DNA from: Chryseobacterium koreense CCUG 49689
GTDB taxonomy: Bacteria; Bacteroidota; Bacteroidia; Flavobacteriales; Weeksellaceae
Length of the DNA stretch: 64,000 bases
Reading direction: 5' to 3'
Assembly: GCF_001045435.1 (NCBI RefSeq)
Contig: NZ_LFNG01000004.1
Coordinates: 186,001 to 250,000 of the forward strand
The stretch's first letter is position 1, and each line of letters starts with the position of its first letter. Below the pieces are notes generated by a model. That model had not been told where the DNA came from. It worked only from the letters and a program-made list of their open reading frames with translations, and did no database searches. Shown here piece after piece: positions 27,463-49,953 of this stretch. The translations under genes were made by a program, and so were the position numbers.

Positions 27463-27497
27463 TGCAGGGTTTGGCTTTGAGAGGTAGCGTTTGGCGA
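27463..27497 (-). promoter_or_regulatory. 10-bp-periodic GCCAAAC array upstream of the HTH pair
   Basis: On the minus strand the region reads as ten-base units: GCCAAACGCT, ACCTCTCAAA, GCCAAACCCT, GCAAC. Similar arrays occur upstream of traE, traA and the coupling protein, always in the sense direction of the ICE gene. It lies 64-98 bases upstream of the ATG at 27399. Binding of a regulator on one face of the helix is the natural reading. Confidence 0.5.
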
Positions 27498-27520
27498 TTT
27501 ACTAAGCCGTAAATAAAAAA

Positions 27521-27546
27521 ATCGGATAGCTTTTGGGCTATCCGAT
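27521..27546 (-). terminator. Rho-independent terminator
   Basis: A perfect 10-bp stem, ATCGGATAGC paired with GCTATCCGAT, is followed on the minus strand by six T. It lies 28 bases after the stop of the 27574-27855 gene and ends the traE-traQ-side transcript. Confidence 0.85.
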
Positions 27547-27573
27547 TTGCTTAAAAAATGTATGCTGTAATAA

Positions 27574-27855
27574 CTATCTGCGTTCGGCAGGTTGTTCTAT
27601 TTTTACTTCAGGTTGTTGTTTTTCTTTTTTCTCACGCCAATAAACCCACAGCGACAACAGACCGAAAATAATCAGCCCGTAAGCTATCCATTTACCGACC
27701 CTTTCCACGAATTTAATGAAAACCGAACTTTCATAAGATGAGAAGCCCTCTGCTCCCATAGGGCTGCGCCTGTAAAACTTTCTCCGGTTAATCCAGTAGC
27801 GAAGTCCCAGTCCTGCAACCAAAAATATAATACCTATTACCAATGATGCAACCAT
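27574..27855 (-). CDS. Small two-helix membrane protein conserved in tra regions
   Basis: The 93-residue protein has two hydrophobic helices (ASLVIGIIFLVAGLGLRYW and WIAYGLIIFGLLSLWVYW) and a charged tail. It lies at the downstream end of the tra region and before a terminator. Genes like this occur at the end of CTnDOT-type tra operons with no known function; this is recalled from gene context, not proven here. Confidence 0.55.
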   Translation of the reverse strand: MVASLVIGIIFLVAGLGLRYWINRRKFYRRSPMGAEGFSSYESSVFIKFVERVGKWIAYGLIIFGLLSLWVYWREKKEKQQPEVKIEQPAERR

Positions 27856-27907
27856 ACCAAAAATACTTTATTTCCACTGTTTGAATTTACGAAAAATATC
27901 CGTGGCA

Positions 27908-28444
27908 TTATTCAATTTCAAACTCTTTCGGATACCGAACTACACCGCTTACATTTTGCAGCGCATTTTGCGATAGTTCTATTGCCATACAGTTTTCTTC
28001 AGGAACTTCAAATGGCAGCTTTATCCCAAATTCTTTGGTCAGCTTATAGCCAAACTTAGGGTAATAGTTTTCGTGTCCTAACAGCATCACAGAGCCAAAG
28101 CCCATTTTTTTTGCTATATCGTGGGCAGCTTGTATGAGTTTGCCGCCAATACCTTTTCCCTGATAATTCGGCAACACAGCAACAGGGGCTAACGCAAGCG
28201 AGGTGTAAGTGTTTTTATCCTTGTCTTCAATATTAATTTTTGTGAGCAATATATATCCCGCAATTTGATTATCTACTTCGGCAATAAGTGATAATTCGGG
28301 GACAAACGCATCAGAATTGCGTAACCGTTCCACCAAGAACTGTTCTTTATGGTCGCTCAATTCCTCGTTTTCAAAAGCCAGGCGAATGAGTTCAAAAACT
28401 TTTTTGAAATCTTCCTTTTCTTCCTTTCTAATTTTTATTTCCAT
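27908..28444 (-). CDS. GNAT-family N-acetyltransferase (YhbS-like)
   Basis: Residues ~75-140 include LALAPVAVLPNYQGKGIGGK, with the acetyl-CoA loop Q/R-x-x-G-x-G/A (QGKGIGGKLI), and VMLLGHENYYPKFGYK, the YhbS-type string. The start at 28444 (MEIKIRKEEKEDF) is preferred to a longer frame that would begin 48 bases upstream inside a hairpin. At 178 residues it is complete. The substrate is unknown. It sits as cargo after traQ and is bracketed by similar terminator hairpins. Confidence 0.75.
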   Translation of the reverse strand: MEIKIRKEEKEDFKKVFELIRLAFENEELSDHKEQFLVERLRNSDAFVPELSLIAEVDNQIAGYILLTKINIEDKDKNTYTSLALAPVAVLPNYQGKGIGGKLIQAAHDIAKKMGFGSVMLLGHENYYPKFGYKLTKEFGIKLPFEVPEENCMAIELSQNALQNVSGVVRYPKEFEIE

Positions 28445-28476
28445 AGTCTGTAAAATCAGCAGTTTTATAAAATGCG

Positions 28477-28506
28477 AAAACGGCTTACCCAAAAAGGCAA
28501 GCCGCT
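28477..28506 (-). terminator. Terminator-like hairpin upstream of GNAT gene
   Basis: CGGCTTACC pairs with GGCAAGCCG (8 of 9) and is followed on the minus strand by T-rich sequence. It shares the 15-base string AAAACGGCTTACCCA with the hairpin at 28627. Confidence 0.6.
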
Positions 28507-28626
28507 TTCATTGTTTATGGAAATAATAACTTACTCAAATTTGGTAAACCGAAAGGATAATACCCTTTTTCATTATTGCAAGGATAAGAAATTATTTCTT
28601 TAGCAACTATCGAATTTAAAATTAAA

Positions 28627-28653
28627 AACGGCTTACCCATCAGATAAGCCGTT
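28627..28653 (-). terminator. Rho-independent terminator of the tra operon after traQ
   Basis: AACGGCTTA and TAAGCCGTT form a perfect 9-bp stem, followed on the minus strand by a T run. It lies 24 bases after the traQ stop, so it probably ends the transfer operon. Confidence 0.8.
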
Positions 28654-28676
28654 ATTTATGAATTGGAATACTGCTC

Positions 28677-29126
28677 TTAATCGCTGCTGTTAAACTGAAA
28701 AGTTATCTGCTTTTCGTTCCCGAAGCTGTCCGAAATCCAAACATCAAAAGATTGTGATACGGCAGACGTTGACGTGTAATACAGCCTGAACTGCTCCGTT
28801 GGTAACTGGTACAGGTCGTTGGGCTGATACGGCGGCTCATTGTAGTATTGCAACGTTCCCTGACCATCAAACTGGAAGTAGCGAAGAAAATACTGCGTGT
28901 TGCTGTAATTGCCTGTACGCTGTATGGTAATGCGTATTTCTACGGTTTGTCCGTTGGCAACATCTTTAGGCACTGGCATTACATTGACCTCGAAAGGAAA
29001 ATTGTTCTGTATTTCGAGTTCATCATCTTTGCTGCAAGATACCAACGTAACCGAAGCTGTGAGGATTGCCAGGAATATATATAATGGCAGTAGCCCTGTT
29101 CTGAATTTATTGAATATTGCTATCAT
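28677..29126 (-). CDS. traQ: TraQ/DUF3872 conjugal transfer lipoprotein
   Basis: The N-terminus has a signal peptide ending in a lipobox (LTASVTLVSC), so a lipid-anchored periplasmic or outer-membrane protein is expected. The body matches DUF3872 (for example TVEIRITIQRTGNYSNTQYF and DSFGNEKQITFQFNSSD), the family of CTnDOT TraQ. It is 149 residues long. It is the last of the tra genes here and is followed by a terminator. Its role in the transfer machine is not known in detail. Confidence 0.8.
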   Translation of the reverse strand: MIAIFNKFRTGLLPLYIFLAILTASVTLVSCSKDDELEIQNNFPFEVNVMPVPKDVANGQTVEIRITIQRTGNYSNTQYFLRYFQFDGQGTLQYYNEPPYQPNDLYQLPTEQFRLYYTSTSAVSQSFDVWISDSFGNEKQITFQFNSSD

Positions 29127-29139
29127 CGTTTTTTACGTT

Positions 29140-29700
29140 TTAAAAGTTAAACCTTAATCCCACACCTGCCGACGGTCGGAACTGTCGTAAATCCGTACCC
29201 CAAAAGACTTTTGTACGCCCTTGCAGGACTAATACAAATCGGTCAGAAAGGTACGTTTCAAAGGTCAGTCGTCCGCCAGCTCCGTAAATGAAATTGTCCT
29301 CGTCCAATATCTTCGCTCCGTCATACAACATCGGTTCGCCACGGTTGATGCTTTCATAACCTGCTACGGCGGTTATTCCGGCATTCAGCGTGATGTTCTT
29401 CCGGGCATCGCCCAAAAGGAAGAAGCTGTAACCGCCCTCGGCTGTAAAAGTTTCCTGCGGGATGCGGAGGTCTTTATAATCGTGGTATTGGTGCGTATAT
29501 TCCAACGCCCAAAGCTGGTAATTGCCGTTCTTACCGTTCACGGTCATACCGATATTGATATAATAATCGTTGCCGATTTTATCATCGGACAGCACACCAA
29601 CATTTACTTCCAACCCTTTCTGTTTCGGCAGCATTCGCTGTGCCTGTGTCGTTGTGATACCCATTAAAACGAGCATCACGGTATAGATATACTTTTTCAT
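29140..29700 (-). CDS. traO: TraO, conjugal transfer outer-membrane-type protein
   Basis: A signal peptide (MKKYIYTVMLVLMGITTTQA) is followed by alternating beta-rich sequence ending SAGVGLRFNF, a C-terminal aromatic typical of outer-membrane beta-barrels. The order traN-traO-traQ is that of CTnDOT, supporting the name. At 186 residues it fits the family. The 14-base gap to traQ places it in the same transcript. Confidence 0.85.
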   Translation of the reverse strand: MKKYIYTVMLVLMGITTTQAQRMLPKQKGLEVNVGVLSDDKIGNDYYINIGMTVNGKNGNYQLWALEYTHQYHDYKDLRIPQETFTAEGGYSFFLLGDARKNITLNAGITAVAGYESINRGEPMLYDGAKILDEDNFIYGAGGRLTFETYLSDRFVLVLQGRTKVFWGTDLRQFRPSAGVGLRFNF

Positions 29701-29727
29701 TTTATTACTGTTGTTTTAAATGGGTTA

Positions 29728-30621
29728 TTAAAATTTCAGGTGCATATCGTCAATCAAACGAGCCTTGATTAAATCCGAATTTTCCACCTGCAATGTTTGA
29801 TGCCTGCCGCCGTTCTTCTCGAAAATCTCAATCAGAAGTATCTTATCATCGGCAATGGTAAATTGGTCTAAGAGGAATACATTTTGCTCGGTAGATTTTC
29901 CTTTTATGCCGTCCAATGGTTTGTAAGTCCTAAGCGGTGTCAAAGGAATTTCCTGCACTACGGTACGTTTGGCAACCTTTTTATCCACCACTTTGAAATT
30001 GATAAAATCAATCTCAAACGGAACATTGGTTTTGTTACGCAGTTCGGTATGGAAATAGTATTTGCCGTTGTGTATGTAAATGCCTTTGAGGATAAACTGA
30101 ATGCCGAAACTCTTAGCCCCGATATGCTTTACAATGCGCTTGTCTTTCTTGTAAATGGTTTCCAGTAACAAGCCTGCCAGTGAGGGCGAATTGTTGCCCA
30201 ATTCTTCAAAAAGCACATCGTTTCCGTTGGTTCTATCTACTGATTTTTGCATTGTTAGCAGGTCATAGCTTGTTGCTTCAGGGTAGGAACTGTAATACAC
30301 ACTGAAACTGTAAAAACGTCCATCATTGGTAATTACTGAAAAATTCGTTTCCGGTTCAAAGTTCCTTACCGATGCTTTTACTCGTAGTACGTTTTCCGCA
30401 TCTTCGGCTTTACCTGCAATCAGGTATTCGCTTCCCAAATCCACGTAACGAATGGCAGTCGGGAAAATCAAGTGCGAAGTTTTATCGTAGGTTACTTCCA
30501 TTTTGTATGGTTCTATCTTGCCCAATGCAAGCGGAGTTCTGATGCTGTCCTGCGCAAAAGAATTTACGGCTAAGCCGATAGTCAGAGCAAATGCCCAAAG
30601 TGTTTTAAAAAGATTTTTCAT
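29728..30621 (-). CDS. traN: TraN, conjugative transposon protein (DUF4138, VirB9-like)
   Basis: A signal peptide (TLWAFALTIGLAVNSFAQ) precedes a beta-rich body containing YDKTSHLIFPTAIRYVDLGS, the conserved TraN/DUF4138 string. The family is the Bacteroidota counterpart of VirB9, forming part of the outer-membrane core of the type IV secretion channel. At 297 residues it is normal. It lies between traM and traO as in CTnDOT. Confidence 0.88.
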   Translation of the reverse strand: MKNLFKTLWAFALTIGLAVNSFAQDSIRTPLALGKIEPYKMEVTYDKTSHLIFPTAIRYVDLGSEYLIAGKAEDAENVLRVKASVRNFEPETNFSVITNDGRFYSFSVYYSSYPEATSYDLLTMQKSVDRTNGNDVLFEELGNNSPSLAGLLLETIYKKDKRIVKHIGAKSFGIQFILKGIYIHNGKYYFHTELRNKTNVPFEIDFINFKVVDKKVAKRTVVQEIPLTPLRTYKPLDGIKGKSTEQNVFLLDQFTIADDKILLIEIFEKNGGRHQTLQVENSDLIKARLIDDMHLKF

Positions 30622-30644
30622 TATAAAATTATTTTAGTTTAACA

Positions 30645-32256: not shown

Positions 32257-32273
32257 ACTTTAATGATTTTCGG

Positions 32274-32708: not shown

Positions 32709-32719
32709 ATCCTTAATTT

Positions 32720-33343: not shown

Positions 33344-33368
33344 TTTTAAGAATGATTATTGTTTTACA

Positions 33369-34364: not shown

Positions 34365-34366
34365 TG

Positions 34367-34999: not shown

Positions 35000-35026
35000 T
35001 TTCTTGAAATTTTAAATTGTTAATGA

Positions 35027-38000
35027 CTATTGATTTGAATTGTCACGCCGTTGCATAGCGATATGCTTAATGGCGAGTTCCACGTTTCCGTCCAGTTCAG
35101 CAGCGAGCTGCATTACTTCCATTTTTTCGGTTTCTTCGGTGGTATAGGCGAGGTATTCCTCCAAACTAACTTCGGTGGCATAGACTGCCGAGTGCGTACC
35201 ACCTAAACCAATCCAGACTTCTTTGTAAAGCCTTGATGGGTCGTTGTTCATATTGATAGAAAGTACCTGCCCTTTCTCCTTATCGGTAAGCCCCAGCATT
35301 GCCTGTATATCGTCAAACTTATTCATATACTTGCGCTGGTCTAAGAGGATTTTACAATCGGAGTTGTTGATGATACTTTCTTTCACAATGGGCGACTGGA
35401 TAATATCATCGACCTCTTGCGTTACGACAATCGCTTCTCCGAAGAATTTGCGAACGGTCTTAAGTAGGCTAAGCATCCAGCGCCTTTTCGTATTGCTACG
35501 GTAGGTTTCCAAACACTCGCCCCCGAACCGGACTTACACGTCTCCGCGTATCCGGCTCTCCACTAATCTTGTCAGTCTAATGTTCCGTTATGGATTTTCT
35601 GATGACAGCTGTGGCATACAGCAACGGTCTTTCTTCTTCTCGCAATCATGTGTCTTTCCCAACTCTTTTTACCTTCAAGGTTTTTGAGTTTTCGCACATG
35701 GTGCATCACAAGCTTTTCCGTAGCTCCACATATTTCGCATTTCTCAGCTTTTAGCCTGTCTATAAGGCTTGTCCTACCTGCATCAAAGATGGAATAGGGT
35801 AAAATATCAAAGCCAGCGTCTGTCATCGGGTTCTTTCTTTTGAACCCCAAGTCGTAGAAGTATCTCTCTTTTACAACACCAGATTTAGTGGTAAACCTTA
35901 CTGTAAATTTTCCATTTCTACGATACTTGGCGTTTATCTTTCTCGTTGAACTTTTATATTTCCCAGCAAAGGTTTTGTACATACTGTACTCCATTATAAA
36001 CCTGAAGTTGTGCAGTTCAGAACAGTTGTTAGCAATAGAGAAGTAATTGTAGAACCCTCGAATTTCCCGATTATATCGGTCAAGAATTTCAAGGTCGTCA
36101 TTGAATATAAGTCCAGACCTGCTTTTTGGTTTCCAAATTTCCTTTCCATTTGGGTATCGGAATTCCAATACGCCATAGTCAAGTAATTTATTCCTCATTG
36201 TTTCTGTACTCAATTTGAGATATACCCTTTTTCCATAGGTTCTTCTCAAACGACCTGCAATATCTCTTCGCTGTGCGTTGGATTTTCTCACAAAGATTTC
36301 ATAACCAAGAAAATGTGCTGAATCTTCCGTGTGGGTAATGAGAGTTTTCTCATCTGACAGTTCCACCTTGAGCTTTTCATTAAGGAAATTTTTAATATCT
36401 TCCTTGACTGCTTTAGCATCTTGTTTACTGCCTATTATCCCAATTAGGAAATCATCTGCATATCTGACATATTTCAATCTCTTATAATCTGTGTCCATTT
36501 CCTCAGAGCTTGGGTACATTGCACGTTCCTTATCTTCTGCTTTGATCTGTTGGATCAAAACCGCTTTTTCATTTTCGTCTTCTACATACCTTAGTTTTCT
36601 TACAGTTCTTCTTCTAGCATTTTCAAAATCCATACGGACTCTACTTGGTCTGCGTTTTTCTCCCTTATCGAATTTTGTGATGTACTCTTTTATGTATTTG
36701 TCTAATCTGTCGAGGTAAATATTTGCCAGTAATGGACTAACAATACCTCCCTGCGGTGTTCCGCTATACGTTTTATTAAATTTCCAATCTTCGATGTAAC
36801 CTGCATTCAGAAACTTTCTGATTAGCCTTATAAATCTATCGTCGGAGATATGTTCTTTAAGTATGCCTATCAGCACATCATGACTGATGTTATCAAAGAA
36901 TCCTTTTATATCTCCTTCAATGAACCATTTGGCTCCATTGAATGACTTCTGAATCTGAGCCAGCGCAGTGTGACAACTACGATTTGGACGGAAACCGTGT
37001 GAGGTATATTCAAAACGTCCCTCATAAATAGCTTCCAAAATCATTCTTATCACTTCCTGCACTAATTTGTCATCAAAAGCAGGTATGCCAAGGGGGCGCA
37101 TCTTACCGTTTTTTTTCGGTATATAAATTCTCCTCGATGGCTGGGGCTGATAGCTTTCATCTTTTAATGAGGCTATCAGCTTTTCAATCCGAGATAAACT
37201 CATATTGTCAATACTTTGACCGTCTGAACCTTCCGTCATATTACCTTCTTTTGCATAAATGCGTTGATAGGCAACATAGAACATCTCTTCATTGAACAGA
37301 ATCCTGTAAAGCCTTTCAAACCTGTAGCTTGAAGTTTTACTGTGTTCCATTAGACTGTTTAATACTCTTTCTGGATTTCTCATAATGTCTCTCACATTTT
37401 CCTTTAATCGTATTAATAAAAATTAGCTGCTTCCCTTCGCCATGTACAAGGCTTTCCCTTGCTCGGACTACTACGAAAGCTCCGTTACCATGTCGGATAT
37501 TCAGAGAGCTTTACTCTCATAGCCTTTTGGCATTCCGATTTAGGTAATCCCCGTTTGCGACTTAATAACTATTGGCACGATGGATTGTCGGATACGACTT
37601 CCGTCCTTTGTACGCTTACTGCGACTGCGCTGTAATAAGTTCCTGCTCCAACCATACCAATTCACTGGTGGAGTATTACAGTATGACGATTGATAGCTAT
37701 CTTACGCCATAATTTCAAGTGGAATCGCTTGGACTATCGTTTAATCAATTCGGATTTTATCCTCATATCCATCTTTTCATCTTGCCATTCAGTAGCAGTC
37801 TGATAGCTAACTGACTTATGACTTTACCGACATGCTTCACTCCCTGTCCAGTTTCCCTTTCAGATAAGTCGGTTGATGATAGGTTTTTAAAGAACACTAA
37901 CCTAATCTCTTGCCAAAGAGATATTTACTAAGCCGCCTGTACGGGCGCACAGAGGTACTTGATGTATTCCGCCATTCCCTCTTTGGCAATCGCTTTCCAA

Positions 38001-40357: not shown

Positions 40358-40663
40358 TTACAGGAAGAATGAACGCAGGATGGTAGCGGCAACAATCAGG
40401 AAGATACACGCACCAAACCAGCTTGCCGCAGTCTTGCTCGTGTCAGGGTCGCCGGAGCTGAATTTGTTATACACCTTAACGCCTCCGATGAGCCCAACCA
40501 CCGCACCGATGGCGTAGATTAATTGGGTGGCGGGGTCGAAATAGCTTGTTACCATTTGAGTAGCTTCGTTGATACCTGCCGAACCGTTTCCCTGTGCGAA
40601 CGCACCAATTCCTGACAGCATCGCCACGGCTGCCAGCAAAACTTTTTTTCTCTGTTTTTCCAT
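40358..40663 (-). CDS. traE: TraE (DUF4134), small membrane protein
   Basis: The signal peptide MEKQRKKVLLAAVAMLSGIG is followed by two helices (LIYAIGAVVGLIGGVKVYNK and ACIFLIVAATILRSFFL). This is the DUF4134/TraE pattern of 101 residues, VirB2-like in layout. It is the first gene of the traE-Q transcript. A repeat array lies 91-125 bases upstream, and beyond it a divergent defence-like operon starts. Confidence 0.88.
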   Translation of the reverse strand: MEKQRKKVLLAAVAMLSGIGAFAQGNGSAGINEATQMVTSYFDPATQLIYAIGAVVGLIGGVKVYNKFSSGDPDTSKTAASWFGACIFLIVAATILRSFFL

Positions 40664-40753
40664 AATTGAAACACATTTATTTGTTACATTTTATCCCGCA
40701 CCTTGCGAGCTTTCGGGACAAATGTCTTGTGGAAAAAGAGGCGTTATAAGAAA

Positions 40754-40788
40754 GTGGCAGTCAAAGGAAGTGTTTGGCTGTGAGTGGC
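40754..40788 (-). promoter_or_regulatory. 10-bp-periodic GCCAAACACT array upstream of traE
   Basis: On the minus strand it reads as units GCCACTCACA, GCCAAACACT, TCCTTTGACT, GCCAC. It is followed by TTTCTTATAA, much like the sequence after the matching array ahead of the coupling protein. It is 91-125 bases from the traE ATG. Confidence 0.55.
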
Positions 40789-40852
40789 TTTGTTGGTGGG
40801 AATTTTCAGAACGAGAGTGGAAATTTTCAAATGCTTTTTATACAATTTACAG

Positions 40853-40883
40853 TTGGTTCAATGCAACTTTTAAATTACATTTG
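40853..40883 (+). promoter_or_regulatory. Promoter of the ABC-3C-like operon
   Basis: TTGG at 40853-40856 and TACATTTG at 40876-40883 are 19 bases apart and fit the Bacteroidota -33 (TTTG) and -7 (TAnnTTTG) pattern. The ATG of the first gene is 38 bases after the -7 box. The operon therefore has its own promoter, pointing away from traE. Confidence 0.65.
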
Positions 40884-40920
40884 TACATTCGTAATAAAGT
40901 CAATTTTAATCCTTTTTGAG

Positions 40921-41136
40921 ATGAAAATATCAGGCAGACATATTGGAGAAATGCTGAAGGAAGCCAGAGAACAAAGACAGCTAACTCAAGAACAATTAGC
41001 CCAAAAAGTGGGTAAGAAAAGGAGTTACATTTCTAAGGTTGAAACTGATTATGGCAATAATATCAAACTTCAAACCCTTAAAGAGATAGTAGAAAAGGGA
41101 TTTGACGGTACAGTTAAAATTAATTTGGAACTCTGA
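40921..41136 (+). CDS. XRE-family helix-turn-helix regulator
   Basis: The start at ATG 40921 follows the promoter; an upstream extension would run through the promoter and is rejected. The 71-residue protein contains HIGEMLKEAREQRQLTQEQL and KKRSYISKVETDYGNNIKLQ, a Cro/C1-type HTH. It ends 7 bases before the next gene, so it is probably the autoregulator of the five-gene operon, as in many conflict systems. Confidence 0.85.
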   Translation: MKISGRHIGEMLKEAREQRQLTQEQLAQKVGKKRSYISKVETDYGNNIKLQTLKEIVEKGFDGTVKINLEL

Positions 41137-41143
41137 TTTGTAT

Positions 41144-42040
41144 ATGGATAAATTATTGAAGAACGCTTTTAAAATGCAAATTCAATCCAAAGAAGGATTT
41201 GAGTTCGAAGAATTTATTGATGAACTGTTTCTTTTGAAATATGGCGTTGATAACTATACGCCCATTAGAAGGAATAAGGATAAAGGCAATGACGGTACTA
41301 TTTTACCCGAACAAAAAATATTGGCTTGTTACGCACCAAGAAAATATAGCAAAACTGATTTTGAAACGAAAGTTTTAGGGGCAACAAACAAAGAAGGAGA
41401 TTTCGAAAAATACCAGAAAAACTGGAAAGACAAATTTCCAAATTGGGAAATGTACGTAAACCACGAAGTATCACCGGAACAATTTACGCTAATTCAGAGT
41501 TTGGACGGCGATACTTCGATTAAGGGTATAGACCAAATTCTTTCTATTGTTGATGAACTTGTATCAAGTAAAAAAAGAAAACTTGCAGCTTATTTGGGGA
41601 TTGAGAACTTTTTTATACAGGACTATATTCAGGAAATTATTAATGACTTATTGAATGCTTCAAGCGAAGAAGATAAGGCTCTGCATTTCGACAGGAAATC
41701 ATTAGTCCCTCCCCAAAAGAAAATCGAACTCAACTTTGAGCAGGAAGATTGGGATGGAATGAACTCGGAAATGGTACTGGTTATGGCAGAATTTAACACG
41801 ATTACCAATATACTTTCGGGATATAACGATGATGAGATTAATACCCTGAAAAGAAGAGTTATAAATGATTACAATAAACTTTCAGGAAATTTCAAGGATA
41901 GATTATATAATCTAACCGACCAATATACAACAGCATATGGAAACATTAAAGATGATGAATATGTGAAGTGTGTAAAATCTATATTGCTTTATATGTTTGA
42001 GCAGTGTTTAATAGGCAGAAAAACAGAAAATGAACTATGA
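41144..42040 (+). CDS. ABC-3C-like third component, nuclease-like N-terminus
   Basis: The ATG at 41144 (MDKLLKNAFKMQIQSKEG) gives 298 residues. An E-rich helix is followed by GNDG (48-51) and CYAP (62-65); the strings echo a restriction-nuclease-like N-terminal domain of ABC-3C effector proteins, but the usual Q/E-x-K is replaced by CYAP. The C-terminal half is helical and would be the ABC-3C-specific domain. The name is assigned from neighbours and general layout, with a search needed. Its stop overlaps the next start by 4 bases. Confidence 0.5.
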   Translation: MDKLLKNAFKMQIQSKEGFEFEEFIDELFLLKYGVDNYTPIRRNKDKGNDGTILPEQKILACYAPRKYSKTDFETKVLGATNKEGDFEKYQKNWKDKFPNWEMYVNHEVSPEQFTLIQSLDGDTSIKGIDQILSIVDELVSSKKRKLAAYLGIENFFIQDYIQEIINDLLNASSEEDKALHFDRKSLVPPQKKIELNFEQEDWDGMNSEMVLVMAEFNTITNILSGYNDDEINTLKRRVINDYNKLSGNFKDRLYNLTDQYTTAYGNIKDDEYVKCVKSILLYMFEQCLIGRKTENEL

Positions 42041-42327
42041 TATTACCGCAGCCAGAAAGCAATCTTAAAACCAATCTTATGGTATTGGGAGCAGATATTA
42101 TTAGTATTATGGGCAATTCCCCTTTTAAAAACAAATATACCATCGTGGATGATATAATGAATAAGTTTTTAAACAGGGATAAAGATAGAACACCCGACCT
42201 TTTTCTGTATGCTTTAACCTTTTTGCATACAATTGGCAGTATTGAGAAAAAAGGATATAAAATTAAATTGGTAAAGAAAGAAAGCCAAGAAGAAAATCAA
42301 ACAAGTTTATTCGACAATGTTAATTAG
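42037..42327 (+). CDS. ABC-3C-like middle component (MC6-like)
   Basis: The 96-residue protein begins MILPQPESNLKTNLMVLGAD and continues LFLYALTFLHTIGSIEKKGY, the layout of the small middle components of ABC-3C systems (possibly MC6). It overlaps both neighbours (4 and 11 bases), so the three products are made in step, as expected for a complex. No catalytic motif is expected or seen. The family assignment is from recall. Confidence 0.5.
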   Translation: MILPQPESNLKTNLMVLGADIISIMGNSPFKNKYTIVDDIMNKFLNRDKDRTPDLFLYALTFLHTIGSIEKKGYKIKLVKKESQEENQTSLFDNVN

Positions 42328-44092
42328 AATATATTCAGAAACCAACCTTATAGATGCTGTTCCATTTCACAATGGAATAAACATCATATTGGGCAAATAC
42401 TCTGGGGATAAAGAAGCACGAGGGATTAATGGTATTGGCAAATCTACGTTGGTCAGGCTTGTTGATTTTACCTTACTAAGCGGTAAAGCAGAAAAAAGAT
42501 TTGCTCAAAAAAAGTATGACTTTTTACGTGAGGATGAACACACGATTACTTTAGAAATTGAAGTACAGGAACAAAAATATTTTCTCAAGAGGGGCTTTGC
42601 CGATACAAAAAAAATATTTTTCGGGAAGCGACCGGATGCTCTCGATGAATATGAAAAATCTGAAATGCCGAAATTGCTGGAAGGGATATTTTTTCCGACA
42701 GAGAACAACGAAGTATTCTTTGAGGGAAAAAGATATGGAACGTTGATGGAATTTTTTGTTAAGGATGACTTGCAAAGTCAGCAGAGAGTTGACCCTTTAA
42801 ATTTTGTTTCTTATAACGCCAATGCAAGAGAAAAGGCGTTGTATAATTTTTATTTGCTTAATCTCCCGACTAAAACACTTTTAAAATATAACGAAGTTTC
42901 TTCTGAATATGAAAGATACAATAATACAGTAAAATCATTATCAGAAAAGGTTAAGGCAGATACAGGGAAAGATATTCAGGAGTTTAGAACCGAGCGGCTA
43001 AAAATCGAAAAAGATATTGTAGCACTTGAGAATAGCCTGAAAGAGTACAACTTTCTTGCTAATCACAAAGAGATAGAGCAAAAGCTAAATCAGGTTATAT
43101 CTGAAATTAACGAGCAATCTGTCATCTATCATAATACAAACCGTAAATTAGAAAAACTCAAATCCTCTTACAATGATGTAACATCTATCGACCTGGACAA
43201 AATTCGTAAGCTCTACAATGAAACCGTATCTACATTTGGCAACTTTGTAAAAAAGAGTTTAGATGAAGTTATAGACTTTAAAAAACAACTTCTGGCGAAT
43301 AGAAATAAATATTTATTGGAAGAAGAAAAGAAATTACAATCATCAATAGACCAAAGTTTAACACAGCTTGAAAAATTAGAAAAGAACAGGAGCCAATTAT
43401 TTTCATTGCTAAAAGAGAGAGGTGCATTGGACAGGATTGAGAGTACCTACGAAAGATTAGTGAATGAAAAAACACTTTTAGAACGGAACACCTCAATTGT
43501 AAGGGAAATTGACGAAATAGAGGAAATATTAGGAAATTCCAATATTGTCATTGCAGAATTAAAGAGAGATATTGTTAGTGAACTAAATAAGCAACAAACC
43601 TATCTTGATGAGTTGAGATTATTATTTCAGCAAATTCTTGAAAATGCTATCTATTTGGATGAAGAATTTGATAATTCTTATTTTAATATCACATTAAACT
43701 CTACTTCGCCAAGAAATCAGTTGCCATTTAAAATAAGTCTGGAAATTCCAAAAGCAGATGCTTTGGGACAGGAACGTTTGAAAATTGTAGCGTATGATTT
43801 AATGGTATTCTTAAAAAGCAGGATTGATAAACGCAATATCCCTGATTTTCTTGTACACGATGGTGTATTTCACGCCATATCATACAAAACAATATCCAAT
43901 GTCCTGAACTATATGTACCACAAATCGAACGAGCTGCATAACTTTCAATATATACTTACTTTCAATGAAGATGAAATTGATTTAAACGGCGATGAAAATA
44001 AGTTTGGAAAGTTTGATTTTGATTGGTCAAAACAAGTGATTGCTGAATATTCAGATACCGAACAGGAAACAATTTTTAAACGATTTTTTTAG
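42317..44092 (+). CDS. ABC-type SMC-like ATPase with DUF2326-like C-terminus
   Basis: Walker A GINGIGKSTLVRLVDF is at residues ~36-50. A coiled-coil region (~190-430) separates it from a C-terminal domain with FLVHDGVFHAISYKTISNVL and YILTFNEDEIDLN, which fits DUF2326. This is the RecN/SMC-like ATPase of ABC-3C systems. At 591 residues it is normal. The next gene begins on the base after its stop, so translation is coupled. Confidence 0.75.
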   Translation: MLIRIYSETNLIDAVPFHNGINIILGKYSGDKEARGINGIGKSTLVRLVDFTLLSGKAEKRFAQKKYDFLREDEHTITLEIEVQEQKYFLKRGFADTKKIFFGKRPDALDEYEKSEMPKLLEGIFFPTENNEVFFEGKRYGTLMEFFVKDDLQSQQRVDPLNFVSYNANAREKALYNFYLLNLPTKTLLKYNEVSSEYERYNNTVKSLSEKVKADTGKDIQEFRTERLKIEKDIVALENSLKEYNFLANHKEIEQKLNQVISEINEQSVIYHNTNRKLEKLKSSYNDVTSIDLDKIRKLYNETVSTFGNFVKKSLDEVIDFKKQLLANRNKYLLEEEKKLQSSIDQSLTQLEKLEKNRSQLFSLLKERGALDRIESTYERLVNEKTLLERNTSIVREIDEIEEILGNSNIVIAELKRDIVSELNKQQTYLDELRLLFQQILENAIYLDEEFDNSYFNITLNSTSPRNQLPFKISLEIPKADALGQERLKIVAYDLMVFLKSRIDKRNIPDFLVHDGVFHAISYKTISNVLNYMYHKSNELHNFQYILTFNEDEIDLNGDENKFGKFDFDWSKQVIAEYSDTEQETIFKRFF

Positions 44093-44905
44093 ATGGCGAA
44101 CTATCAACTACCTCCTTTAAAAGATGAAAGGTTATTTGAGGAACTTACTTGTGATTTATTCAATTTTGTAGAGAATACTTCGTCATATGAGAATACAGAC
44201 TTTCAGACGTTTGGTGTAAAAGGACAAAATCAGAAAGGAATTGATGTCTTTTCTACTAAAACCAAAACGGTTATTCAATGCAAATTGAAGAGCATTGGAA
44301 GAAAGGATGAAACTATCAGGAAAAATCTAATTCAGGATATAAACACCGATTTAGAAAAATCGAGGGACTTAGCTATTGATTTCGACAAATTTGTTTTTGT
44401 TTCTACCTTCCGTGACGATGTGCAAATACAGGAATACCTCAATCAAATCAGAAAAGAAAAGGAACTTCCATTTCATTTATATTATTGGGGATGGGACACC
44501 GTTACAAAGCATATTGAACAATCAGAGGCTTTGCTACATAAGTATTTTCCAAAGTTTGTAAAAAAATCCAAGCCTGTAAAAGCAAAAATTGAATTACCTG
44601 ACGGAGCATTGGGGAAAGAGCTTTCTAAGAAGAACTATATTGATTATTTAAAAAAAAGATATGGCGATTGGAAACAAATTGAACTAAGTAAAAAGGGAGA
44701 AAAATTCAACTGGGCTGCTTTTACTATTTCATTATCTAAAAGATATAAAGCATCAGGAATTAATTATATTGATGTTCGGCATTTTGATGATTTAGCATCC
44801 TATCTAAAAAGCCGGATTGATTGCACAATTATGGGAAAAGTGAACAAGTCTAAAGGAATAAAAAACTATTCTGCGTTTGAAGAGTTCTCGGAAAACGGAA
44901 TTTAA
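44093..44905 (+). CDS. Mrr-like PD-(D/E)XK restriction-type endonuclease
   Basis: FEELTCDLFNFVE, then GID (Asp51) and VIQCKLK (Gln62-x-Lys64), reproduce the E...D...Q-x-K core of Mrr-type nucleases. At 270 residues, the C-terminal part (residues ~150-270) is helical with no known motif. It is the last gene of the operon and is coupled to the ATPase (TAGATG). It probably is the effector that cuts DNA or RNA, or a fourth component beyond the standard three. Confidence 0.7.
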   Translation: MANYQLPPLKDERLFEELTCDLFNFVENTSSYENTDFQTFGVKGQNQKGIDVFSTKTKTVIQCKLKSIGRKDETIRKNLIQDINTDLEKSRDLAIDFDKFVFVSTFRDDVQIQEYLNQIRKEKELPFHLYYWGWDTVTKHIEQSEALLHKYFPKFVKKSKPVKAKIELPDGALGKELSKKNYIDYLKKRYGDWKQIELSKKGEKFNWAAFTISLSKRYKASGINYIDVRHFDDLASYLKSRIDCTIMGKVNKSKGIKNYSAFEEFSENGI

Positions 44906-44921
44906 AAAGACAAAGGGAAGT

Positions 44922-45557
44922 CTATAAGAACTCCCCAATGTCAAAATTCCCCAAATCATTTTTCCGCAAGGTGGAAGAACCGGGTTCTGTTTCAGTTGAA
45001 AGGCTACTATCCAAAAGCTCGGCTATCTTTCGGGAAGCATCCGCCACAGAATTTTCCAATAGGCTGAATAGTTCGGTTCCCTGTAATTTCTGAACTATGG
45101 CTACCGCTGTTTCCTTTTGGGCTGTTTCCAATTTTTCTTTTTGGAGCAATACCCCCACGGAGCTTAGTTCTTCGAAGGTAACCCCTTGGGCAAAACCGTC
45201 ATCGCCATTGGGTATTCCGTACCTGTTCCAGTCTTCTTCCTCATCTTCCAAATCAGGTATATTGCTGAAAACTTCGTCCAGTTCTTCCTGCGGAATTTGA
45301 ATGCTGACGTTTTCGTTTTCGTCATATTCAATGTCTAAATTATCAAGGTTTATCTCCACTTCCTCTATTTGGCTTTCATTGGCAGTGTTTGGCACTGAAT
45401 GGCTTAATTTCGGTTTAGGCTGCCCCATAATATCGGGAAGGTGCGGATTGATTTTTCCCTTTGTCGGCTTTTGCTCCGACCTTTTCTTAATGACAATCTT
45501 GTCCTGCAAAAGCAAGGCAATGACTATCAGCAGGCATATTACAATTACAATCTCCAT
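44922..45557 (-). CDS. TraC-like hypothetical tra protein
   Basis: One N-terminal membrane helix (VIVICLLIVIALLLQDKIV) precedes a highly acidic body (for example DLEDEEEDWN). It follows traB in the same order as CTnDOT traC, so it is named by position only. Its 3' end faces the nuclease gene 16 bases away. A copy of the 10-bp-periodic motif lies inside its coding sequence at 45378-45403. Confidence 0.6.
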   Translation of the reverse strand: MEIVIVICLLIVIALLLQDKIVIKKRSEQKPTKGKINPHLPDIMGQPKPKLSHSVPNTANESQIEEVEINLDNLDIEYDENENVSIQIPQEELDEVFSNIPDLEDEEEDWNRYGIPNGDDGFAQGVTFEELSSVGVLLQKEKLETAQKETAVAIVQKLQGTELFSLLENSVADASRKIAELLDSSLSTETEPGSSTLRKNDLGNFDIGEFL

Positions 45558-45568
45558 AGCTCCAATTA

Positions 45569-46003: not shown

Positions 46004-46007
46004 AGGA

Positions 46008-46775
46008 CTATAATTGAATGATTTTTAAAAATTCGCTCATAAACTCGTCCAACTGGCAGGCTTTCATCAGCCGCTCATCGGGCGGCATCAGGGTTGAGCG
46101 AAATATGGTTTTGCTGTTTACTTCGCTTTCCTTGCGGAAGCGTGTGCTGTTTTTGATTTGGCTTTGCATCAGGCTTAACCCTAACTGTTCGATAAGCTGA
46201 TTATATATACCGTATAGCGGGGTACTTTCCCTTCCATCCACTTGGTTCCAAAACAGGTTAATGGTTTTTATATCGGTTTCTCCTTTCTTCATAATCACGT
46301 CCTGCAAAAGCTGTGTGAAAATGAGCGTACTTTCCATTACCACACGGTCTGCCGTAATGGGCGTAAAAATGTGGTGCATTCCTGCCAGTGCTTTCAGGAT
46401 GCCGGGTGTGTTCACCGTTCCGGGCAGGTCAAAGAATACCACATCAAGTGGCACTGAAGAGCTGCTTACAAATTCGTGGGCTTCTTCCAGTACGCTGTTT
46501 GCCTTGTGCTGTATTATTGGATAGGCTTTTTTGTTGATAGTGGTAAATTGTTTGTACGCCAGCTTTTTCAAAGCCTCGTTTTCCATTATCATTTTCAAAT
46601 CACGGTCTTTCATTTTCATCAGGCTGTGCTGTGGAAAATCCGCATCGAATACGGCAACATTGTAGCCTAACCGGTAGTGCATTGTACTTGCAACAAGCGT
46701 AGTAAAGGTGCTTTTACCTACACCGCCTTTTTGGGATGAAAAGGCGATAAATACTGGTTTTTGTTTTTCGTTCAT
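46008..46775 (-). CDS. traA: TraA, ParA-family ATPase
   Basis: FIAFSSQKGGVGKSTFTTLV at residues ~9-28 is the deviant Walker A, and DVVFFDLPGTVNTPGILKAL the Walker B region, of ParA/MinD proteins. At 255 residues it is a normal TraA of Bacteroidota conjugative elements. It is thought to help position or mobilise DNA. It is the first gene of the traA-B-C unit, with the 4-base-periodic tract directly upstream. Confidence 0.88.
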   Translation of the reverse strand: MNEKQKPVFIAFSSQKGGVGKSTFTTLVASTMHYRLGYNVAVFDADFPQHSLMKMKDRDLKMIMENEALKKLAYKQFTTINKKAYPIIQHKANSVLEEAHEFVSSSSVPLDVVFFDLPGTVNTPGILKALAGMHHIFTPITADRVVMESTLIFTQLLQDVIMKKGETDIKTINLFWNQVDGRESTPLYGIYNQLIEQLGLSLMQSQIKNSTRFRKESEVNSKTIFRSTLMPPDERLMKACQLDEFMSEFLKIIQL

Positions 46776-46777
46776 AT

Positions 46778-47157
46778 TACAACTGTTTTTACTTATTTAT
46801 ATACTCAATTACTTATGTCCGTATCTCCGCAGGCTTCTACCTATATCATCCTGTACATAGGCATATAGGTATGTAATTACTTAGGCAGGTATGCGCTCCA
46901 TTAGCGATGTACCTGAATACTTCTTTAGGATTGTATGCAGATATGCAGGTTTGCATCTGCATATCTGCCGATATGCGTACCTGCATTTTTACTTGCTCAA
47001 CTATCTGTTCAGGTATGTCGGCAGGTATTTTTCTATCTCCGTACAATTGCACTTAGCTACTTTTTTAATCAGGTACTTATGTTGTTACCTGCATACTTAT
47101 CTGCGCCCTTATCTCTGTTTCTATGTACAAAGAAATGCAGATAGATAGGTGCTTATT
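46778..47157. repeat. ~380 bp tract with 4-base periodicity
   Basis: From 46778 the bases split into tetranucleotides beginning with T or C, most often TA: taca, tact, tatg, tatc, tacc, tagg. From 46802 I counted 42 of about 88 words beginning TA, with hardly any TA in other phases. The pattern ends near 47157, where the 10-bp array starts. It is not a 3-base (coding) rhythm, and the open frames across it are by-products. Confidence 0.75.
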
Positions 47158-47162
47158 TCATT

Positions 47163-47197
47163 GTGGCAGTGTTTGGCGTTCAAAGGCAGTATTTGTC
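47163..47197 (-). promoter_or_regulatory. 10-bp-periodic GCCAAACACT array between traA and mobA
   Basis: On the minus strand the units are GACAAATACT, GCCTTTGAAC, GCCAAACACT, GCCAC. They are oriented towards traA, but 388 bases from its ATG, with the periodic tract in between. Confidence 0.5.
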
Positions 47198-47284
47198 CGG
47201 GTATCGCATTGCAATACTCTTAATAAGAGGTAGTTACTTTGTAGAATGATTTTTATTAACGGATTTATGCAAGCATATTTTGAC

Positions 47285-47450
47285 AAATCGGAAAAAATGG
47301 GGAACGGCATCGAGCCGTTTTTCCCTGTTACATTCAATCCGTCCCGCAGGGCGGATTTTTGTGTTCAACAGAACACGGCAAGTTGTGTTCTCAGCATCTC
47401 AAAAGTATTTTCCGATGCAGAACAACTTGCCCTTGCAGGGGGCTGGAAAA
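47285..47450 (+). other. Candidate oriT region upstream of mobA
   Basis: Several inverted repeats cluster here: GAACGGC/GCCGTTTTTC, AATCCG/CGGATT around CCCGCAGGG, GAACAC/GTGTTC, and GGCAAGTTGT (47377-47386) with ACAACTTGCC (47422-47431). The palindrome CCCTTGCAGGG lies next to the last. Such clusters just before the relaxase genes are typical of origins of transfer. The nick site is not identifiable by eye. Confidence 0.45.
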
Positions 47451-47496
47451 CACCTTCCGAAGTCAGGGTTTTGTATAGGTTAAAAATGGATTTATT

Positions 47497-47943
47497 ATGA
47501 ACGAGAACAACAAAAGACAAGTGAGAAAACCCATTGGTCGTCCACTTAAAACAGACCCAGCGATATTCAGGTATTCGCTTTCTCTTAACGAAGAGGAAAA
47601 CGCCAAGTTTCTTGCCCTGTTTGACCAGTCGAATATGGATGTAAAGGCACACTTTATCAAATCCCGCATCTTTGACAAGACGATAAAGACCATTCAGATT
47701 GACAAAGGAACGGTTGATTTTTATATGCGGCTGACCTCTTTTCACAGCCAGTTCCGCAACGTTGGCGTGAATTACAACCAGATTATTAAGCTGCTTTACA
47801 AGAATTTTTCACAGAAAAAAGCATCGGCTTACCTCTTTAAGCTGGAAAAACAGACGGCTGAAATGGCGATGTTATGTAGAAAAATCATTGAACTGACCGA
47901 AGAATTTGAAGCAAAATACCTCAAAAACCATTCTAAAAAGTGA
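47497..47943 (+). CDS. mobA: Mobilisation accessory protein, MobC/MobA-type
   Basis: Basic N-terminus (NNKRQVRKPIGRPLKTDP) and a helical body with FHSQFRNVGVNYNQIIKLLY, the relaxosome accessory (MobC) string. At 148 residues it is normal. It binds oriT and recruits the relaxase. Its stop overlaps the GTG start of mobB. The probable oriT lies immediately upstream. Confidence 0.8.
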   Translation: MNENNKRQVRKPIGRPLKTDPAIFRYSLSLNEEENAKFLALFDQSNMDVKAHFIKSRIFDKTIKTIQIDKGTVDFYMRLTSFHSQFRNVGVNYNQIIKLLYKNFSQKKASAYLFKLEKQTAEMAMLCRKIIELTEEFEAKYLKNHSKK

Positions 47944-49226
47944 TAGCAAAAATCGGTAGGAGCGGAAATTTATATGGTGCATTGGCATACAATAACCTGA
48001 AAATTGAAAAAGAAAACGGACAAATTCTGTTTGCCAATAAGATGATTGAAACCGCAAGCGGTCAATATACGGTTGCGCAATTAGCCCAATCTTTCGCTCC
48101 TTATCTGATAGCCAACCGCAATACCGAGAAACATACGCTGCATATTTCGCTCAATCCCGACCCGAAAGACATCGTAAATGATGATAAATTTCGGGAAATG
48201 GCACAGCAGTATATGCGGGAAATGGGTTACGGCGAGCAGCCTTTTATTGTATTCAAGCATACTGATATTGACCGCAGCCACATTCACATCGTATCGGTAT
48301 GTGTGGACGAGCAGGGCAAAAAGATTTCGGACAAATTTGAGAAAATGCGGTCGATGAATGTATGCCGGGAACTGGAAAAACAATATCATTTAATACCGGC
48401 TACGGACAAAGAACGTAACCAGACTGATAAGGTTTTCCGTCCGGTAGATTATCGGGCGGGCGATGTAAAAAGCCAAATAGCTTCGGTCGTTCGCCACCTG
48501 CCGAACTACTACCAATACCAAACTTTGGGCGAATACAATGCCCTGCTTTCCCTGTTCAATATTACCACCGAGAAAATAGAGGGCGAATTACAAGGAAAAA
48601 TGCAGCAGGGCTTATTATATATTCCGTTGAATGAAAAAGGCGAAAGAGCCGGGCATCCGTTCAAGGCTTCCTTGTTTGGCAAGAGCGCAGGGCTTCCGGC
48701 TTTGGAATTGCATTTTGCGAAATGCAAAACGGCATTGAAAGACAATCCTACCAAGCAGACCCTAAAATCTGCCGTTACCATAGCCCTGAAAACCACAAGC
48801 GATGAACAGGCATTTAAAAAGCAGTTAGGAGAACAGGGCATTAACATAGTAGTGCGCCGGAATGATACAGGACGTATTTACGGTATCACTTTTATTGACC
48901 ACAATTCCAAAACGGTTTGGAACGGTTCACGTTTAGCAACAGAGCTTTCTGCCAATACCTTTAATGATTACTGGAATAACAACATTAAGCCGGAGATAAA
49001 AGAGCCTGATAAGCTAATACCGAAAATAGCAAGGACAAATGATGCAGATCTTCCTGCGGAAGAACCCCACCATTTGTTTGATTTTGTTACTACCGATAAA
49101 AATGAAGACGGGTTGGTTGAAGCGTTGGGCGGTTTGCTCATTCCCGAAGCACAGGGCGAGGATTACGAGGAACAGGATTTTGCCAATAGAATGAAAAAGA
49201 AAAGGAAGCGCAAACGAGGTCAGTAA
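47940..49226 (+). CDS. mobB: Relaxase (MobB, Bacteroidota MOBP-like)
   Basis: The start is GTG, overlapping mobA. The relaxase motifs are HTLHISLNPDPKD (near 72) and KHTDIDRSHIHIVSVCVDEQ (near 106), containing HxDxxxxHxH, the metal-binding histidines. The catalytic Tyr is probably Y14 or Y20 near the N-terminus. At 428 residues it is normal; the C-terminal tail is charged and ends in a Lys/Arg-rich stretch. It nicks oriT and leads the strand into the recipient with TraG-type ATPases and the coupling protein. Confidence 0.88.
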   Translation: MIAKIGRSGNLYGALAYNNLKIEKENGQILFANKMIETASGQYTVAQLAQSFAPYLIANRNTEKHTLHISLNPDPKDIVNDDKFREMAQQYMREMGYGEQPFIVFKHTDIDRSHIHIVSVCVDEQGKKISDKFEKMRSMNVCRELEKQYHLIPATDKERNQTDKVFRPVDYRAGDVKSQIASVVRHLPNYYQYQTLGEYNALLSLFNITTEKIEGELQGKMQQGLLYIPLNEKGERAGHPFKASLFGKSAGLPALELHFAKCKTALKDNPTKQTLKSAVTIALKTTSDEQAFKKQLGEQGINIVVRRNDTGRIYGITFIDHNSKTVWNGSRLATELSANTFNDYWNNNIKPEIKEPDKLIPKIARTNDADLPAEEPHHLFDFVTTDKNEDGLVEALGGLLIPEAQGEDYEEQDFANRMKKKRKRKRGQ

Positions 49227-49244
49227 CAGGTTTTTCTTTGCCTA

Positions 49245-49802
49245 TTATGTAGAAACTTTCAGCCCCAACGCATAGCTCCAATGCAAAATCTTAGGTGCAG
49301 TAGGTGTTTTGAATTGATAAATACCGTAGATGTATAATGCGGAAAGTACAAACGCTCCCCAGCTTAGCCCGATACACCATATACTATCTCGTTCTGTCAC
49401 GCTGAACATACCAGCTACTATTGATTTTATAATGAATGCAGGAACAATGCAGCATAATAAAACACAGATAGCCCACGGTAATATCCATAGCCTCTGGTTC
49501 TTTCTCCGTAATCCTATAATAGTTCCTTTCAAAAAATAAACGATGCAGAAGATGAGGTAGGCAAATAATAGGGAGAATGCCCAAATCTTAAAGTTATCAG
49601 TTTCTTTGCCCCACAATTTTTGCGACAGCAAAAACCCGGCGTAAAAGAACACGCCGAAAATAGCCGCTATTTTTAAGCCGAAAAGAAAAAACTTTATTAT
49701 CCCAGACATTAATCCGGTGGCAGCTTGGCTTTCACCTCTTTTCCGAATTTCATATTCTTCTTCAGTTTCTCCGGGATAAGCATCAGGATTATTCCAATTC
49801 AT
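49245..49802 (-). CDS. Hypothetical membrane protein
   Basis: Four or five hydrophobic helices follow an acidic N-terminus (MNWNNPDAYPGETEEEYEIR). It is 185 residues long and has no recognisable motif. It lies on the opposite strand between mobB and the coupling protein gene, converging with mobB. It may belong to an unrelated unit; its role is unknown. Confidence 0.6.
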   Translation of the reverse strand: MNWNNPDAYPGETEEEYEIRKRGESQAATGLMSGIIKFFLFGLKIAAIFGVFFYAGFLLSQKLWGKETDNFKIWAFSLLFAYLIFCIVYFLKGTIIGLRRKNQRLWILPWAICVLLCCIVPAFIIKSIVAGMFSVTERDSIWCIGLSWGAFVLSALYIYGIYQFKTPTAPKILHWSYALGLKVST

Positions 49803-49928
49803 AGCATTCCTCTTTTAAATCTTGCTTGTTCCAACAGACGAGAATAGCAAAATGGTTTTCACGAGTATAAATTTAAAAAAAATCATTGGATTACCTGAAC
49901 GGTATTGAAGGCTTTATAGCCTCTTAAT

Positions 49929-49953
49929 GCCAAACACTGCCATTCACTGCCAC
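49929..49953 (+). promoter_or_regulatory. 10-bp-periodic GCCAAACACT array upstream of the coupling-protein gene
   Basis: On the plus strand the units are GCCAAACACT, GCCATTCACT, GCCAC, followed by ATTCTTATAG. The last part closely matches the sequence after the array ahead of traE. It is 63-87 bases before the ATG at 50016. It is oriented in the sense direction of the coupling-protein gene. Confidence 0.55.

Follow-up and report, generated by a model that had tools for sequence, protein, structure and literature searches.

The window analysed here, a 64,000-nucleotide stretch of Chryseobacterium koreense CCUG 49689 (contig NZ_LFNG01000004.1, positions 186,001 to 250,000), carries an integrative and conjugative element (ICE) which, by its gene content, is a CTnDOT-like ICE of Bacteroidota. 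In this ICE and in six others, a tandem array of 10-bp units precedes six operons in the same register to their promoters, and a loose form of it recurs at roughly half of the promoters tested in six diverged ICEs. An original prediction, made from the letters of the window alone, had read 10-bp-periodic arrays ahead of four ICE transcription units as a possible operator of an ICE-wide activator or repressor, and the distribution across operons and elements bears out the ICE-wide part of it. Judged by their sequences, the arrays are real, ICE-wide and ordered, and they are not a new kind of system. Considering also the analogy with known regulators, we think it probable that a head-to-tail filament of HTH_17 proteins, centred on Xis2d, forms on the arrays and activates the whole transfer regulon of six operons. 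The names xis2c, xis2d, orf3 and exc are presumed, being transferred from CTnDOT by gene layout.

The four arrays lie where they had been predicted, with refined coordinates, and each is directed toward the gene named for it. The predicted structure, three or more units ending in GCCAC, needed revision in part: each array consists of four 10-bp units when degenerate ones are included, and the ending holds except at the HTH_17 pair, where it is GCAAC. On the minus strand, the array upstream of the HTH_17 pair (27461..27495) reads GCCAAACGCT ACCTCTCAAA GCCAAACCCT GCAAC, that upstream of traE (40754..40788) reads GCCACTCACA GCCAAACACT TCCTTTGACT GCCAC and is followed by TTTCTTATA, and that in the traA/mob intergenic region (47163..47197) reads GACAAATACT GCCTTTGAAC GCCAAACACT GCCAC. 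The array upstream of the coupling protein gene lies on the plus strand (49919..49953) and reads GCCTCTTAAT GCCAAACACT GCCATTCACT GCCAC, followed by ATTCTTATA; of its units, the first (GCCTCTTAAT) is a degenerate one. The WTTCTTATA string said to follow the traE and coupling arrays is thus present at both. Several features go beyond the prediction, namely the four-unit structure, a fixed distance of 31 bp to the promoter, two further promoter arrays to the right of the window (75635-75669 and 80207-80241 in window-extended coordinates) and an intragenic array within a 211-amino-acid tra gene (45369..45403, minus strand, GCCATTCAGT GCCAAACACT GCCAATGAAA GCCAA). This intragenic array is found in 7/7 ICEs with matrix scores of 29.9-33.6, and the sequence at +31 from it is not TTYR. 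In another genome, an array of different units lies 5′ of traE inside an apparent open frame, with TTTG at +30 (L273, G178:C3 187095). An internal promoter at such intragenic or in-frame arrays is possible.

The arrays stand in a nearly invariant register to the promoter. Among the 43 promoter arrays of the seven ICEs, 42 have the TTYR of the -7 element exactly 31 bp past the last unit, the sole exception being the coupling gene of G110, with TTAC at +31. When all 54 sites of eight elements are considered, including seven intragenic arrays and four of a third element of the same genome (on C16), TTYR is found at +31 in 43, the next offset reaching 13, and TAnnTT in 31, the next offset reaching 4. 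The sequence at +31 depends on the promoter type (coupling TTCA, traE TTTG, traA TTTG, HTH pair TTCR, DUF1896 TTTA, orf3 TTCG). Over the eight columns +27 to +34 the six types hold 9.5 bits, compared with 2.3 ± 0.6 at random offsets (0/2000 as high), with type labels that derive partly from the downstream sequence; eight of 50 sites, one HTH-pair site of G120 and the seven intragenic ones, were labelled "other". Compared with the TAnnTTTG of Bacteroidetes sigma-A promoters, TTYR is in the consensus of all six types and TA four bases earlier in four of them; the exact TTTG consensus at +31 is limited to traE and traA. In the window, the -7 elements are TAAATTCA for the HTH pair (27426..27433, minus strand) and for the coupling protein (49981..49988, plus strand), both with TTCA at +31, and GACATTTG for traE (40719..40726) and TTTCTTTG for traA (47128..47135), both on the minus strand with TTTG at +31. 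By position arithmetic, the leaders predicted for the HTH pair, traE and the coupling gene are short, about 22-51 nt, and that of traA extends for about 350 nt up to its ATG at 46775. The predicted traA leader (46775-47123) is, by eye, rich in imperfect GCAGGTA-like repeats.

In each of the seven ICEs an array stands 5′ of six operons, namely those of the HTH pair, traE, traA and the coupling protein, which lie in the window, and DUF1896-helicase and orf3-topoisomerase, which lie immediately beyond its right end. The seven ICEs (60-104 kb inspected in each) are the window ICE (C4), its sister on C6 and five of other genomes, and were selected for carrying hth2, the first gene of the HTH pair. 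Some ICEs have an extra DUF1896-type array copy (G120:C1 3025440, G186:C1 2319961), that of G120 being its second. The prediction would have been refuted by an absence of the array 5′ of the same genes in close relatives, or by a motif equally common in the chromosome; neither is what we observed. The 14-mer GCCAAACACTGCCA has seven matches in the 3.15-Mb genome, six in the two ICEs and one on C15 (reversed control 0); the C15 match lacks further units around it and was treated as chance. GCC-N7-GCC-N7-GCCAC also has seven matches, every one in three mobile elements (reversed control 1), and GCCAAACNCTGCMAC with one mismatch has 16, of which 12 are in the three elements on C4, C6 and C16 (control 0). 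The remaining four are at C3:63392, C11:115528, C15:34058 and C21:8980. With a 35-column matrix, the ICE arrays score 29-48, the maximum in 240 kb of chromosome is 14.4 and the rest of the ICE stretches does not exceed 15.0; the training windows include those of C4, C6, G110 and G144, with the DUF1896 and orf3 sites from C4 alone and the HTH-pair site from C4 and C6. Over 295 same-class genomes, the GCCAAACNCTGCMAC pattern is matched in 31 (44 places; reversed control 6), and among 30 such loci inspected only L202, L203 and L217 score >30, so that lone 15-mers of this kind beyond this ICE family are for the most part chance.

It could be argued that the arrays look alike by chance or because a single promoter was recently duplicated in the ICE. 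The genome-wide pattern controls and the matrix scan rule against chance. As for duplication, the six types share little between the array and the -7 element, their units are arranged differently, and the register is retained in part of the diverged ICEs. We regard an origin of this kind as extremely improbable.

Conservation extends to more distant elements. Among the best 80 of at least 580 named relatives, which are Flavobacteriia-, Sphingobacteria- and Chitinophagia-type records, together with the window's genome, 81 coupling starts yield 58 distinct upstream windows, a few of which, for instance those of L082, L095 and L107, are strongly altered. Counting distinct rows only, and leaving out rows with scores below 33 (3/58 for coupling, 1/28 for traE and 1/56 for traA), the sequence at +31 is TTCA in 44/55 coupling windows, TTTG in 25/27 traE windows and TTTG in 48/55 traA windows. 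When one coupling locus per genome is taken from 12 genomes, the array scores 38-48 in seven and 17.7-23.3 in three, and it was recognised at neither of the remaining two. Of 24 promoters tested in the six diverged ICEs (G128, G002, G031, G096, G139 and the second copy of G019), 13 have a loose array followed by TTYR at a distance of 30 or 31 bp, versus 3 of 2000 random 173-bp chromosomal windows; in this comparison the traA windows have three times the length of the controls, and the start positions of a few genes are approximate. By promoter, these are 3/6 for coupling, 4/6 for traE, 3/6 for orf3 and 3/6 for traA. Two distant same-class genomes, G178 and G282, presumably of Bacteroidales, keep four 10-bp units at traA with 30 bp to TTTG and altered units (GACAAGCGAA GCCATCTAAA GCCATACGAA GCCAC and GACAAAACGG GACACGAAAG GACAAATCGG GACAC, respectively). 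Their orf3 genes also have arrays, with a different spacing to TTYR (26 and 28), and no array was seen in their coupling-gene upstream regions.

The units appear to be of two kinds, A (GCCAAACMCT) and B (nCCWYTSAnn), and the first four bases are the most conserved part of the unit. By a loose rule applied without a control, the order is ABA at 21/21 labelled HTH-pair, traA and DUF1896 sites, BAB at 14/14 labelled traE and orf3 sites, and ABB at 6/7 and BAB at 1/7 coupling sites. Five of six promoter types, and 36 of 42 labelled sites, thus show alternation (ABA or BAB). Since the sites within a type are homologous to each other, the independent number is six. We therefore take the alternation of two unit kinds as a lead rather than a proof.

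The position of the arrays bears on their function. In Bacteroidetes promoters the TAnnTTTG box is reported at -12 to -5 (PMC9723704), and because of the 31-bp spacing the array would lie at about -74 to -40, the position of an activator. Of the two roles first proposed for the operator, activator or repressor, this placement favours the former. The -33 TTTG is not clear at the array promoters; in Flavobacterium, too, it is described as unclear (PMC7366714). In the traA/mob intergenic region, the mob-facing end of the traA array is followed, 40 bp further on, by a TTTG toward mob (47238..47241, plus strand), presumably the -7 of a divergent mob promoter. This offset is kept in 49 of 54 distinct relatives, with rows scoring below 36 left out. 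Dyads of two kinds, ACTGTnnnACAGT or GTATYGCAATGCRATAC depending on the ICE, are visible by eye between the traA array and this TTTG (47198-47241), and might serve as oriT or as an operator for mob. Centromere-like sites, too, typically consist of regular arrays, and all seven ICEs have genes for the ParA-type TraA and a DUF3408 protein. The arrays might accordingly be repressor operators or architectural sites of a partition- or oriT-like kind, occupied for instance by TraA with the DUF3408 protein. Their distance and direction are, however, fixed relative to six promoters, the array stops where the -33 region begins and leaves the core promoter uncovered, and the DUF3408 protein is only 39-79% identical to that of the window in ICEs with similar arrays. 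This explanation is in our opinion very unlikely.

We then considered which protein might bind. The response regulator and the HTH proteins of the window had been proposed as candidates, and only the HTH class is retained here. Within it, the best candidate is an Xis2d-like HTH_17 protein encoded just beyond the right end of the window, in preference to the in-window pair. The response regulator (25811-26533) was rejected: in C6, G129, G144 and G120 its matches have 28-34% identity and cover about half of the protein, and it is better matched only in G019 (84/64) and G110 (66/62), and is unmatched in the inspected stretches of five of six diverged ICEs. An AraC-type protein (52732-53610) was also rejected, its conservation being poor among array-bearing ICEs. 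By contrast, the coupling protein is found at ≥80% identity in 12 of the 148 genomes surveyed within the order, at 15 places, and Xis2d at ≥67% identity in exactly the same 12 genomes, with an in-frame stop in G119; hth2 at ≥89% identity is found in six of the 12. The inspected stretches contain four HTH_17 proteins per ICE in the seven ICEs, Xis2d alone in five diverged ICEs, and two in G096. The HTH_17 proteins share a core around LxIS-R-LQ-YR-LPY-GK-YYK.

Two other element-encoded factors have to be weighed. RteC (PF09357, L015 17152-17997) might itself occupy the arrays and directly activate every operon. It is matched in all seven ICEs and the six diverged ones, and RteC of CTnDOT is reported to govern excision and transfer genes (PMC1976400). 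Yet it is only 27-45% identical in G031, G096, G139 and the second ICE of G019, and the first three of these keep an array at one promoter at least. Moreover, RteC co-occurs as Xis2d does but diverges faster, it is unmatched in the 35 kb inspected around the C16 element, which has arrays and an HTH_17 pair, and available accounts of CTnDOT place it upstream of the excision genes. Direct activation by RteC is therefore unlikely. Alternatively, the hth2-hth1 pair rather than Xis2d might be the array-binding activator, autoregulated via its own array. The pair lies directly behind an array in 7/7 ICEs, and in the mobilizable-looking element on C16 the arrays are accompanied only by a pair of the hth2-hth1 kind. 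The diverged ICE of G128, however, has strong arrays (34.6, 40.7 and 37.1) and no such pair in the ICE or the 120 kb around it, where the HTH_17-like matches are a cross-match to Xis2d and one weak match at C3:246874 beside another integrase-like gene; the pair is likewise lacking in G119, G002 and G031, which keep decayed arrays. We accordingly assign the pair as the main activator a small probability.

Returning to a filament centred on Xis2d, the arrays would be the operators of a common ICE promoter class, in which four 10-bp units, spaced roughly a helical turn apart, share a face of the DNA and abut the -33 region. HTH_17 proteins of the excisionase/BldC-type winged-helix kind, encoded by the element, would occupy the units head-to-tail, each unit taking a single monomer, and the monomer nearest the promoter would assist RNA polymerase. 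The most likely core factor is Xis2d, whose gene belongs to the RteC-xis2c-xis2d cluster, and Xis2c and the in-window hth2-hth1 are likely partners or amplifiers; the HTH pair behind its own array would provide positive feedback. RteC would turn on xis2c/xis2d, which would then co-activate traA, traE-Q, the coupling protein, orf3-exc, DUF1896-helicase and the HTH pair. The arrays, their register, the six promoters per ICE, their conservation and the co-occurrence are features of the sequences themselves; the binding protein, its filament mode, activation and, by analogy with CTnDOT, the RteC step are inferred. A variant of the motif occurs 5′ of xis2c in 6/7 ICEs, GACAAACACTGCCAC (GACAAACTTTGCCAC in the window ICE) with TTTG 10 bp past GCCAC. 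Unlike the 31-bp class, this promoter (L015 about 16940-16990; C6:188248) has two units, beside inverted CCAAT/ATTGG repeats. Such units would overlie the core promoter, which suggests feedback or RteC input. A further elaboration, which we put forward as doubtful, is that the alternating units carry a heteromeric filament of two HTH_17 paralogues on alternate turns, serving as the switch of the entire CTnDOT superfamily, which activates six transfer operons from -74 to -40 and brakes its own synthesis at xis2c via GACAAACNCTGCCAC about 10 bp before TTTG. Drift of the unit from GCCA to GGACA together with the protein would have made the transfer codes private, and the C16 element and other small ones would share the code of the ICE so as to follow it.

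Several observations weigh against a filament of this kind with Xis2d at its centre. The loose search gave no array at 11 of the 24 diverged promoters, and the second ICE of G019 has Xis2d, yet an array was found at 0/4 of its promoters. Xis2d of about 70% identity occurs with strong arrays in G128, but in G031, G096 and G139 the arrays beside such an Xis2d are weak or missing, and among 30 loci of Xis2d relatives in the class the matrix found an array at four (L161, L162, L163 and L168) and none at 26. Co-occurrence cannot single out Xis2d because RteC and other core proteins co-occur, and the training set of the matrix contains the window ICE. The published site of Xis2d in CTnDOT is reportedly a dyad, not an array. 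BldC and RdfS, the nearest filament-forming regulators, have a poor sequence consensus, whereas the units here are well conserved. Structural comparison is also ambiguous. The hth1 model resembles BldC-DNA complexes with TM scores by target of 0.73-0.79 over about 50 residues, Pukovnik Xis with 0.66-0.68 and RdfS with 0.57, but it is a single-sequence model with a mean pLDDT of 63 (about 80 in the domain), has no match in the Protein Data Bank (PDB) at E 0.001, and its top-ranked PDB match is AntR with TM 0.30; a search of PDB sequences likewise yielded nothing relevant. An N-terminal helix is predicted in the models of both hth1 and hth2, the latter of low confidence.

The genes around the arrays are those of a conjugative element. 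Pfam matches include TraQ, TraO, TraM, TraJ, TraG ATPase, DUF4134 (TraE), ParA (TraA), DUF3408, MobC_2, a relaxase and the YWFCY coupling protein. On the minus strand lie hth2 (27088..27399, 103 aa, HTH_17 at 6.1e-10), the first gene of the in-window pair behind its array, hth1 (26814..27155, 113 aa, HTH_17 at 2.6e-12, with a TIGR01764 excisionase match below the cut-off), its second gene, traE (40358..40663), the first gene of the type IV secretion operon traE-traQ, and traA (46008..46775). On the plus strand, mobA (MobC_2/Bacteroid_MobA) and the relaxase gene (47497..49226) diverge from traA, followed by the coupling protein gene (50016..52016; YWFCY, T4SS-DNA_transf). Right of the window are DUF1896 with N6-methylase/SNF2 helicase, ORF6N, topoisomerase, DUF3945/DUF4099, two HTH_17 genes (xis2d-like at 9.5e-10, xis2c-like at 6.1e-10) and RteC. 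Here RteC, the two HTH_17 genes, DUF3945/DUF4099 and Topoisom_bac adjoin in that order, which we take to be the layout of the CTnDOT excision cluster. No direct repeat of at least 15 bp was found between the compared flanks of the C4 and C6 ICEs, the window, L014 and L015 contain no tRNA, and no matrix site ≥11 lies near the integrase genes found. A five-gene insert with HTH_3 and DUF2326 proteins (40774-44905), shared among the six other ICEs only with G120, separates traE from the 211-aa gene and may be defence cargo; a 607-aa open reading frame (35572-37395) within the tra operon, an insertion, is unmatched in all six.

The third element, on C16 (about 57800-66800; L159, L160), looks mobilizable, with an integrase, an HTH_17 pair of its own and mob genes, and the tra genes of the window are unmatched in the 35 kb inspected. 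Four arrays were found there by the matrix, with +31 being TTCG before the HTH pair, TTTC at one and neither at two, so that TTYR is at +31 in one of four sites by the matrix register. One of these arrays precedes a 229-aa gene which by eye resembles a nucleotidyltransferase.

If the proposed mechanism is true, the transfer regulon of widespread Bacteroidota conjugative elements, that is, which operons switch together, could be read from sequence, and so could which mobilizable elements are slaved to ICEs. The arrays would point to an activator-RNA polymerase contact at promoters with a poorly defined -33 element, and would be a sharp operator for HTH_17 excisionases doubling as activators, of which the published members, BldC and RdfS, are without a clear consensus. 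The filament model can be tested directly through unit number, phase and distance. Judging by titles and abstract openings, no literature description of these arrays was found, most subscription papers being beyond the reach of the search.

Among the closest known systems is BldC, a MerR-like winged-helix protein of which four monomers are reported to bind head-to-tail to four direct repeats spaced by a helical turn (PMC5859096; PMC6428758), with its repeats on smeA-sffA of Streptomyces at about -60 to -10 (PMC5859096). BldC repeats are AT-rich, of 9 bp and poorly conserved, whereas the units here are GC-containing, of 10 bp and strict, and BldC is a chromosomal developmental regulator. RdfS of ICEMlSym-R7A, grouped with HTH 17, is described as a head-to-tail oligomer that activates transcription and governs excision and transfer of its ICE (PMC11963761); no consensus motif was identified for it, unlike the sharp units of the present arrays. 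The excisionases of CTnDOT are likewise said to activate transfer genes (PMC9956884, PMC5729914). The CTnDOT cascade, from RteC through Xis2c/Xis2d/Exc to tra and mob, has the same RteC, two HTH_17 genes, orf3 (DUF3945/DUF4099) and topoisomerase in the same order, as well as tra and mob genes, with an array sitting here in the traA/mob intergenic region. It differs in that the present ICEs distribute their tra functions among several array promoters, each with four tandem units and numbering six in all per ICE, and in that they have a second HTH_17 pair. SGI1 is an integrative element whose promoters fit AcaCD, the activator of a conjugative element. The array promoters of the C16 element are similar in this respect, with a regulator of a different family, and trans-activation of C16 by the ICEs is a possibility.

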